A stretch of DNA of 38,320 bases from Phycisphaerae bacterium. Its GTDB lineage: Bacteria > Planctomycetota > Phycisphaerae > Phycisphaerales > Phycisphaeraceae. Location: positions 1 through 38,320 of the forward strand of contig JAUIGU010000038.1 in the NCBI GenBank assembly GCA_030432595.1. Direction: 5' to 3'. A program made the position numbers and the translations under genes. Within the stretch, counting starts at the first letter, position 1. Each line of letters opens with the position of its first letter. Below are positions 29,955-38,033 of this stretch, piece by piece. The notes under the pieces are model-generated. The model saw nothing but the letters and a program-made list of their open reading frames with translations, was not told where the DNA came from and did no database searches.

Positions 29955-30088
29955 GGCCACAAGAGGCACAATAGACACAAAAATGTCTTCGAGTCTGATT
30001 CGCTGCTTGAGAACTTGGCCCGGTCTGTTGACTTTTCCCATCCACTTTCGTTCATGATCCGTGTTGATCGGTGTCCATCGGTGGTTAC
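29955..30088. repeat. Mosaic dispersed repeat with two different inward-facing units
   Basis: The left unit (about 29953-29984) reads GGCCACAAGAGGCAC then AATAGACACAAAAA. The right unit, on the minus strand from 30088 to about 30056, reads ACCACCGATGGACACCGAT then caACACGGATC. That differs at few positions from the left arm of the 328-586 element. The middle (29985-30055) shows no gene. The element fills the gap between the membrane protein and the first YkgJ-type gene and ends 11 nt before that gene's -10 hexamer. Confidence 0.7.
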
Positions 30089-30099
30089 CCATTCTGCGT

Positions 30100-30105
30100 T
30101 ATGAT
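30100..30105 (+). promoter_or_regulatory. -10-like hexamer TATGAT, leaderless start of the first YkgJ-type gene
   Basis: TATGAT (five of six consensus bases) is followed by six bases (tacgtg) and the ATG at 30112. It rules against a start inside the repeat at 30061. Confidence 0.55.
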
Positions 30106-30111
30106 TACGTG

Positions 30112-30603
30112 ATGCCCGAAGCAACCAACGGAGCGGGAGCCCGAGCCGATGCCGAGCCGTGGTACGCGCCCGGGCTGCGGTTTTCGTGCACGCAGTGCGG
30201 GAACTGCTGCACGGGCCCGCCGGGCTACGTCTGGTTTGATGAGGACGAGGCCGAGGCGATGGCCCGCGAAGTCGGCGTCGAGGTTGACGCGTTCTACCGG
30301 ACCTACGCCAAGCACAAGTTCGGGCGGTGGACGCTGGAAGAGGTCAAGGTCGGACGGAAGTACGACTGCGTGTTCCTGACGCGTGACGAGAAGACGGGTC
30401 AGGCCGGCTGCAGCATCTACAAGGCGCGCCCGACGCAGTGCCGGACGTGGCCGTTCTGGGACAGCAACCTCAAGAGCCGGCGGGCGTGGGCCGGCGCGGC
30501 GAAGGGTTGCCCGGGGATGGCGTTGCCGGACGAAGAGCGCGGCACGTTTGTGCCGATCGAGGACATCCGCGTCCGGCTGAACGAGAACCCGTCGGGTTTG
30601 TAA
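30112..30603 (+). CDS. YkgJ-family cysteine-cluster protein (first of a pair)
   Basis: YkgJ-type proteins have a cluster of cysteines thought to bind zinc or an iron-sulphur centre; their biochemical role is unsettled. The 163-residue protein has FSCTQCGNCCTGPPG with C26, C29, C32 and C33, then CSIYKARPTQCRTWPFW and GCPGM. This gives the usual eight-position pattern in a protein of normal length. A GTG start 51 nt upstream would translate part of the repeat at 30056-30088 and is rejected. The second YkgJ-type gene begins 3 nt after its stop, so the two are cotranscribed. Confidence 0.88.
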   Translation: MPEATNGAGARADAEPWYAPGLRFSCTQCGNCCTGPPGYVWFDEDEAEAMAREVGVEVDAFYRTYAKHKFGRWTLEEVKVGRKYDCVFLTRDEKTGQAGCSIYKARPTQCRTWPFWDSNLKSRRAWAGAAKGCPGMALPDEERGTFVPIEDIRVRLNENPSGL

Positions 30604-30606
30604 GCA

Positions 30607-31341
30607 GTGGCTGCGTCGGACCCGCCATCGCCAAGTTCGGACGCGGTCGATCCCAAAGCCGCAGGCCAACGGTCTGCGCGCGACTCCGTAGACGCGCAGG
30701 CCGTTGGCCTGCGGCTGGGCGAAAAAGAACTTACGGACGCAGACCATGAAGCCTGGTCGCGTTGGCGTCACGCCGCGCAGCGACCCGAGATCGATCATGC
30801 GTTGCGAGAGCTTTACGCCCGCCTTGACGCAGACATCGCGCAGCGCGGCCCGACGTGTTGGCGGTCCGGGAAGTGCTGCCGGTTCGGCGAGTACGGGCAC
30901 CGGTTGTATGTGACCGCGTTGGAAGTTGCGTGGTTTACGTTCCAACTCGATCCTCTCCCACCGGGGGAGGTGGCCCGCGAAGCGGGTCGGAGGGGGCGCG
31001 TAACCACGGCCGACGATTCGTCTGGCCGGGGCACCCTCCCCCAGCCCCTCCCGGAGGGAGGAGAGTTGAGCACGCGCTTGCCGGTGCTTGCTCCGATCCC
31101 TGAACCCCGATCCCCGAAACCCGACACCTGCCCCCACCAGCACGACAACACCTGCACCACCCACGCGATCCGGCCGCTGGGGTGCCGCATCTTCTTCTGC
31201 CAGGAAGGCACGCAGGACTGGCAGCACGAACTCTACGAGCAATACCTCGCCGACCTGCGCGAGCTGCACGAGCAACACCGCATCGAATACCGTTACGCGG
31301 ACTGGCTGGCGCTGCTCGACGAAGCCGAATCGTCGTGTTGA
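30607..31341 (+). CDS. YkgJ-type cysteine-cluster protein with three in-frame repeat insertions
   Basis: The 244-residue protein keeps the cluster CWRSGKCCRF (C84, C90, C91) and the distal CPHQ...CTTHAIRPLGCRIFFC (C175, C183, C193, C198). About 60 residues that look foreign separate the two halves. Residues 16-38 are encoded by a 23-bp-arm palindrome, 115-154 by a three-hairpin GC-rich repeat, and about 163-174 by a CCCCGA-type repeat. All keep the frame. The GTG at 30607 follows the first YkgJ-type stop by 3 nt; no good ATG exists before the conserved part, so the true start may lie within or after the first repeat. The 3' end overlaps the convergent HAD gene by 49 nt. Whether the protein folds with these inserts is unknown. 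Confidence 0.8.
   Translation: MAASDPPSPSSDAVDPKAAGQRSARDSVDAQAVGLRLGEKELTDADHEAWSRWRHAAQRPEIDHALRELYARLDADIAQRGPTCWRSGKCCRFGEYGHRLYVTALEVAWFTFQLDPLPPGEVAREAGRRGRVTTADDSSGRGTLPQPLPEGGELSTRLPVLAPIPEPRSPKPDTCPHQHDNTCTTHAIRPLGCRIFFCQEGTQDWQHELYEQYLADLRELHEQHRIEYRYADWLALLDEAESSC
30652..30719. repeat. REP-like palindrome inside the second YkgJ-type gene
   Basis: Arms 30658-30680 and 30693-30715 are 23 nt long and pair throughout with a single T-G wobble; the loop is 12 nt. The left arm (AGCCGCAGGCCAACGG then tCTG) resembles the left arm of the intergenic palindrome at 37955-38033 (AGCCGCAGCCAAGCGG then gCTG). Confidence 0.85.
30948..31067. repeat. Three-hairpin GC-rich repeat inside the second YkgJ-type gene
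   Basis: Three stem-loops lie in series. Stem one is 30952-30959 with 30963-30970 (8 bp), stem two 30974-30978 with 30982-30986 (5 bp), and stem three 31047-31052 with 31056-31061 (6 bp). The sequence resembles the CTCTCCC...GGGGGAGG type repeat seen between genes in many bacterial genomes. It is translated here as a Gly/Arg/Pro-rich insert. Confidence 0.75.
31095..31128. repeat. CCCCGA-type low-complexity repeat inside the second YkgJ-type gene
   Basis: This run of GAACCCCGATCCCCGAAACC type resembles 37086-37117, upstream of the sugar-isomerase-like gene. It encodes the Pro-rich stretch PIPEPRSPKPD just before C175. Confidence 0.55.
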
Positions 31342-37085: not shown

Positions 37086-37117
37086 GAACCCCAAACCCCG
37101 CACCCCAGACCCCAACC
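37086..37117. repeat. CCCCGA/CCCCAA-type low-complexity run
   Basis: A purine-spaced run of ACCCC units lies directly upstream of the ATG at 37119 and resembles 31095-31128. It replaces any Shine-Dalgarno sequence for the downstream gene. Confidence 0.55.
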
Positions 37118-37954: not shown

Positions 37955-38033
37955 TTCAGCCGCAGCCAAGCGGGCTGTGTTCCGTGCGCAGGCTCTGGAC
38001 GCTCGGCGCGCACTGCGTTGCAGTGCGGCTGAA
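37955..38033. repeat. 79-bp palindrome with TTCAGCCGCA ends
   Basis: TTCAGCCGCA (37955-37964) and its exact complement (38024-38033) bound the element and read inward. An inner palindrome GCACTGC-gtt-GCAGTGC lies near 38010-38027. The left arm resembles the intragenic palindrome at 30658-30680. Confidence 0.8.

Follow-up and report, generated by a model that had tools for sequence, protein, structure and literature searches.

In-frame dispersed repeats of three families in a YkgJ-like gene, and of the same families in other candidate genes, of a planctomycete genome

Two adjoining genes of the YkgJ type lie on the forward strand of the window, the 38,320-nt stretch of planctomycete DNA analyzed here (Table 1). 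The second (the window gene) runs from a GTG to its stop as a single open frame across three different repeats, designated A, B, and C; that all three are contained in frame within this gene had been proposed in a first-pass annotation and was borne out. Its product matches the Pfam family PF03692 (YkgJ/CxxCxxCC) with 15.7 bits (curated cut-off 23; E 0.026), the match being spread over residues 85–198, and seven cysteines (84, 90, 91, 175, 183, 193, and 198) are invariant in a 40-sequence alignment. No family was assigned by NCBIfam to this protein, to the neighboring YkgJ-type protein, or to the homolog in the same-genus relative G001; Foldseek found no match in the PDB for the model of the window protein, and the four Rfam matches were to unrelated families and all under the gathering scores. 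The first YkgJ-type gene is free of repeats, as had been claimed, with no match to A at up to two mismatches, to X or Y (the two halves of B), or to C. A 397-aa open frame on the minus strand (30085–31278) is antisense to both genes and is probably a GC-rich shadow frame.

Table 1. Genes, repeats, and repeat-encoded stretches of the locus, in window coordinates or residues of the window protein
Feature	Position	Strand	Details
First YkgJ-type gene	30115–30603	+	PF03692, E 2e-11, 44.7 bits; stop 3 nt before GTG 30607
YkgJ-like (CxxxCxxCC-type) gene, repeat host	30607–31341	+	244 aa; open reading frame, alignment, and weak PF03692 match
Repeat A, head-to-head pair of REP-like hairpin units	30657–30716	.	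Units 30657–30680 (minus) and 30693–30716 (plus); 12-nt spacer
A-encoded stretch	residues 17–37		AAGQRSARDSVDAQAVGLR region
Hypervariable linker codons	30946–31128	+	Residues about 114–174, between the cysteine halves, largely B and C
Repeat B, X-Y composite	30948–31067	+	X core 30963–30995; Y core 31031–31063; fold z-score −4.0
B-encoded stretch	residues 114–154		GTLPQPLPEGGE region
Repeat C, CCCCGA-type short-period dispersed repeat	31095–31128	+	Residues 163–174
Further A unit	38007–38030	+	Outside called genes; exact pattern match; stem GCACTGC/GCAGTGC, a compensated variant

Repeat A is a palindrome with two 24-nt arms that are 96% complementary (fold z-score −9.0), and each arm is itself a hairpin unit of the form CGCGC-NNNN-CGTTG-NNNN-GCGGCT. 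Such units occur genome-wide in 60 exact copies and in 87 copies when one mismatch is allowed, where a reversed-pattern control gave 10; at up to two mismatches the 146 matches stand against 120 for the control, chance swamping the excess, and only units with zero or one mismatch were therefore used. In a profile of 86 units from fetched loci (the unit at 38007 left out), each of the four variable stem pairs is Watson-Crick in 77–80 of the units and is made up of two to four kinds of pair, which shows that the hairpin is maintained by compensatory change. At the threshold used, 24 of the 62 A elements are inverted pairs with a short spacer. Thus A has the properties of REP-like palindromic repeats, which are imperfect palindromes of 20–40 bp present in many dispersed copies, often as inverted pairs. 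The GTAG/CGTC tag of REPs was not found in A, the 86-unit profile having GG-CGCGC before the stem with neither tetranucleotide conserved. The inverted pairs with short spacers also resemble REPINs, which are REP doublets thought to be mobilized by RAYT transposases. Unlike in REPINs, no Y1 transposase gene flanked by A units was found: three Y1-type (PF01797) transposase-like matches are present (L091, L092, and L093; two of them over the cut-off), and no A, X, or Y lies within 1.5 kb of any of them. A RAYT for A may lie elsewhere in the genome, or may have been lost since. The palindrome had been likened to an element at 37955–38033, and a unit of exact pattern lies there (Table 1), while a stretch at 37086 that had been compared with C is alike by eye and gave no pattern match. 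A-type units are not limited to the window genome, since the pattern exceeded its reversed control in two relatives (23 against 1 in G003 and 20 against 0 in G035); in G001 there was no excess (5 against 14).

Repeats B and C are likewise dispersed. The annotation had taken the repeats to be multicopy rather than unique, and besides the A units the genome holds 60 copies of Y, 14 of X, and nine places matching C at up to three mismatches, where the reversed controls gave none for each of the three. Y lies within 200 bases of X at 7 of the 14 X places. On its G-rich strand, Y consists of a C-tract, a loop, a G-tract, a second loop, and a mirror G-tract, the tracts being 8 nt and the loops 3 nt long. 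Across the 60 copies, a triplex layout is respected at 470 of 480 stem pairs, at 467 of the 480 positions of the third strand, and throughout in 46 copies, an agreement that the search pattern itself favors; the window copy has one base altered in the G-tract. By its sequence, Y falls within the definition of a bacterial intrastrand triplex motif (ITxF), given by Holder et al. (2015; PMC4666352) as three consecutive tracts of 6–15 nt that form a hairpin and a mirror third strand, with loops of 1–6 nt and at most one mismatch above 7 nt. Y does not follow the consensus given there for the Escherichia coli motif TM_ECO, CCCTCNCCC-N3-6-GGGNGAGGG-N3-GGGNGAGGG, since its tracts are 8 nt long and of other sequence. 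Exact TM_ECO consensus matches were also seen in the window genome, in a scan of the fetched loci (L048, L049, L165, and L207, at C42:49377, C38:231587, C20:49787, and C17:101392), three of the four within 100 bases of an X. The Y and X consensus sequences are free of stops in all six frames, and the window's own A, B, and C in five of six frames each.

A homolog of the window protein was found in 48 of 60 relatives (49 of 61 genomes with its own included). When named genomes were queried with the single protein no relative was confirmed; a query with the alignment did find relatives, mostly Phycisphaeraceae and other Planctomycetota. In these relatives, the linker that joins the cysteine halves is either skipped, only its two flanks being matched, or spanned by different sequence; split matches mostly stop near residues 111–130 and resume near 155–174. 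Gaps in the alignment with homologs had been predicted at the repeats; they were found at about residues 114–171 and at the N-terminus, and the inserted residues are absent from the homologs. The G001 gene contains no A, B, or C, has a linker of 42 residues, and starts about a dozen residues before the conserved core; an exact empty site is undefinable, as the linker diverges between species. The repeats had also been said to separate the two halves of the cysteine cluster. Only B and C sit in the linker; A lies in an N-terminal extension and takes no part in the separation. The linker varies in length in all parsed relatives, from 16 to 64 residues in 28 parsed sequences (the window gene having the longest) and with a median of 23 among named homologs (61 parsed of 80; longest L418, with 76), so B and C lengthen an existing linker and do not create the separation.

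An AlphaFold model, for which the window protein and 39 relatives served as input, gave pLDDT values below 50 at residues 17–36, which nearly coincide with the A-encoded stretch, at 130–152, within that of B, and at 161–163, directly before that of C. A helix is predicted at residues 119–129, within B, and across C the pLDDT climbs from about 50 to 80; in the conserved core, 10-residue means are 75–98. The window gene should still yield a working protein with disordered repeat-encoded stretches. For A, which precedes the conserved core, this depends on the start codon: A would be part of the protein only with GTG 30607 as its start. In frame between 30607 and 30900, there are just two ATG, GTG, or TTG codons, this GTG and a TTG at 30802 (residue 66), which falls inside the conserved core. 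A would therefore be coding if ordinary starts are used. A CTG at 30709 or 30715 may serve as an alternative start, and the discussion of intragenic REPs by Di Nocera et al. (2013; PMC3733652) includes a caution that N-terminal REPs are possibly non-coding.

To place these repeats in the whole genome, units were grouped into 123 elements (62 with A, 54 with B, and 9 with C; two contain both B and C), and a codon-usage model trained on the window was applied to both flanks of each. This automatic census found 15 elements with the same frame open and coding on both sides, two with the same frame and a stop, two on the same strand in another frame, and two with flanks on different strands; in the remainder, one side was coding in 45 and neither in 55, and two were at edges. 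The window's own elements were not scored as intragenic (A as "neither", B and C as "one flank coding"), their flanks being short and repeat-rich. Curation removed from the 15 the element C4:2091, a one-mismatch unit in what looks like ordinary protein and was taken as chance, and C9:5617, a weak case with both strands possible. A longer-range scan contributed three elements, a Y-Y element in Lnt and one C element each in HisF and in a ParA-like ATPase; from it were dropped C27:54586 (one side with a poor coding score), C9:5617, and opposite-strand duplicates; the window gene was added by hand. By this curated count, the process that had been seen in one gene extends to 16, with 13 of 54 B, 4 of 9 C, and 2 of 62 A elements in frame. 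Those carrying B are NuoL, FabF, ketoacyl synthase III, MutM, BioF, MenG/UbiE, Lnt (twice), MutY, a methyltransferase, a Cu/Zn efflux permease, EboE, and the window gene; C is carried by QueG, HisF, the ParA-like ATPase, and the window gene, and A by a histidine kinase and the window gene.

Several of these hosts have solved homologs. Alignment to them leaves a gap at the repeat in MutM, FabF (for part of the stretch), and QueG, and breaks across it in BioF, NuoL, and, weakly, MenG; the MutY alignment ends just before the repeat, and for Lnt the match is weak at best. In synthase III, two Pfam domains lie one on each side of the repeat. Lnt (apolipoprotein N-acyltransferase; L033/L147, C47:3139–3802) has two separate in-frame B insertions. 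HisF (L211, C31:72312), which exceeds the NCBIfam equivalog cut-off, has 301 matched residues against a 254-position model, with repeat C, and possibly a further repeat, in the extra stretch. In being in frame inside conserved genes and absent from homologs, these elements fit a process of the Rickettsia palindromic element type, of which repeat-encoded peptides in expressed proteins would be a further mark. Among the host genes Y is read in all six frames, which argues for DNA that landed there and against a shared protein domain. No clear frame-breaking case was seen among the two same-strand-other-frame and the two stop-containing elements: the former, judged by eye, sit between different genes, and one of the latter lies just upstream of its gene, as the other also appears to do. 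The 45 elements with one flank coding could hide disrupted genes. Since genes fill about 76% of the window, random insertion would predict most copies to be intragenic, and the observed 3% of A and 24% of B are consistent with a strong loss of gene-hitting copies.

The distribution of Y is narrow. It was found in 5 of 61 genomes (60 copies in the window genome, 20 of a variant in G010, 8 in G001, 4 in G041, and 1 in G027) and in 5 of 294 genomes of a phylum sample, its own included; together with the lack of B in the G001 linker, this suggests a recent and local expansion of B. The G010 variant has the form GCACCCTCCCC...CCCCTCCCTCAAGGGAGGG, its 20 copies lying in loci L214–L235 and L265–L275. 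In-frame intragenic Y elements numbered none of 20 in G010 and none of 6 in G001, where one element lies between flanks that are both coding on the same strand but not in the same frame. Retention in frame would thus not be general and would be specific to the B family of the window genome, or to its population history. For A elements in G003, 1 of 20 was called intragenic and looked spurious; in a further three, both flanks were coding but differed in frame or strand.

The linker itself appears to have received repeats in other lineages. Linker DNA of the G007 homolog matches 40 other places in G007 (14 for a ATGGCAGATGG-type part and 26 for a AATCAAAAATC-type part; 40 of 71 candidates were scored), and its two repeat parts flank a TRLPVL segment, an arrangement that matches that of B and C in the window gene. 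In G015, the linker contains a hairpin repeat as well as a CCCCAG run, both found again within 140 kb of the same contig (four hits, E up to 1e-3, against none for the flanking halves of the gene); the three hairpin hits are about 3 kb from the gene, so this family may be local. No dispersed-repeat match for the linker was found in any of six further genomes (G019, G035, G006, G028, G023, and G013), for which samples of 16–260 kb gave low power. When the linkers of 26 named homologs were compared with all fetched loci, most had no match outside homologous loci; short matches to loci from other genomes were seen for linker L430 (two genomes) and for L384 (one genome). The long linkers L414, L424, L428, L402, and L430, from other Phycisphaerae homologs, resemble repeat-encoded peptides (TTDNGPLTTD, REGEAPAEP, REPRTTSHEPR, GSRESGVG, and KLETRN), a subject on which a text search returned no paper. 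By these sequence matches, the same linker bears unrelated dispersed repeats in a second genus (G007) and probably in a third (G015). It is possible, at somewhat less than even odds, that the linker has been built lineage by lineage from fresh repeat DNA (in the window genome and G007 at the same two sub-sites around LPVL, and in G015), with triplex motifs a source of in-frame protein insertions.

The recurrence of dispersed repeats in this linker in G007, and probably G015, together with the good conservation of the stems among copies, could also point to adaptive repeats, whose hairpins or encoded residues would regulate translation or give the linker a function. However, the residues that the repeats encode are not the same from genus to genus and are lacking in the other aligned homologs, the frame in which Y is read differs among its hosts, and the encoded stretches are predicted at low confidence, as disordered stretches are; an adaptive role is therefore considered improbable. 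We also think it quite improbable that the window gene is a decaying pseudogene collecting repeats harmlessly. Its PF03692 score is below the cut-off, which the insert may explain, and the same-family gene beside it is repeat-free, yet the frame is open across three inserts, all aligned cysteines are intact, and so are 45 of 47 conserved columns (the 28 sequences compared are off consensus at 0–5 of them, the window protein at two). In addition, comparison with G001 gave dN/dS values of 0.18 for one half of the gene and 0.25 for the other, which mostly reflect the time preceding the insertions, and other hosts are enzymes expected to be needed, such as NuoL, FabF, and HisF. Drift of a GC-rich linker into chance resemblance to repeats, without any insertion, would suit the wide range of linker lengths but is very improbable given the absence of matches in the reversed controls for X, Y, and C, the presence of the same DNA between genes and in unrelated genes, and the copy counts.

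The in-frame insertion of palindromes into genes is already known, as are double and same-site intragenic REPs. Rickettsia palindromic elements RPE-1, RPE-4, and RPE-6, as treated in the intragenic-REP text of Di Nocera et al. (2013), are found in frame inside genes likely encoding functional proteins, with several families per genome. The repeats described here are like them in being palindromic, dispersed, in frame in genes, and of several families in one genome; they differ in their planctomycete host, in the lack of a CGTC end tag in A and Y, and in the triplex-type architecture of Y. The same text reports intragenic GTAG/CGTC REPs in Opitutus terrae (of the PVC superphylum), Rickettsia conorii, Xanthomonas, and others, often as dimers, in hosts that include DNA repair genes, in some with two per gene, and, in Xanthomonas recB, with different REPs at roughly one position. 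A resembles these as a hairpin repeat inside genes, often a dimer, DNA repair genes again being among the hosts of the present repeats, and differs in its tags. That text on intragenic REPs contains no planctomycete example and no description of several different repeat families in one gene. The locus is less novel than first supposed, intragenic REPs, also two per gene, having been known from O. terrae, R. conorii, and others. TM_ECO, according to the relevant part of Holder et al. (2015), is always intergenic in E. coli MG1655. Y shares with such TM_ECO/PIT triplex motifs the C-rich tract, the G-rich tract, the mirror G-rich third tract, and the 3-nt loops; unlike TM_ECO there, about a quarter of the B elements here lie inside genes. 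Literature searches on palindromic repeats in genes or in planctomycetes, and on triplex motifs in genes, gave nothing comparable, judged by titles and the openings of abstracts, beyond these two papers among the matches listed. Within those matches, triplex-motif repeats inside genes, and a linker filled by independent genera with unrelated repeats, were not found described and are apparently new.

The reading that best accommodates these observations, to which we give a probability of roughly 0.8, is that three repeat families have spread as DNA and survive in frame in tolerant loops and linkers, the window gene having kept three and still working. According to this explanation by DNA spread, small dispersed repeats of three families, forming hairpins or tracts, would have multiplied in the genome, B and A mainly after the split from the nearest sequenced relative. 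Most copies would have settled outside genes, and those that broke genes would have been lost by selection. An intragenic copy would survive if it brought no stop in the frame used, kept the frame, and fell in a loop or linker able to tolerate extra residues. With a tolerant linker and a free N-terminus, the YkgJ-like gene could have retained three such insertions. The elements would on this reading be mobile at the DNA level: A was perhaps moved by a RAYT-like Y1 transposase, and B may have moved by another route, perhaps helped by triplex-induced replication errors, for which slippage at the triplex-forming tracts is a guess. We know of no enzyme for the mobility of B.

These repeats join three topics, namely REP-like repeats, triplex motifs in bacteria, and how new protein segments arise. 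The genome, that of a planctomycete related to Phycisphaera, offers 16 candidate repeat-carrying proteins, several of which have solved homologs, so that the cost of a repeat-encoded loop would be measurable. In the linker of the YkgJ-like protein, it also offers a single place where independent repeat invasions may be compared across genera.
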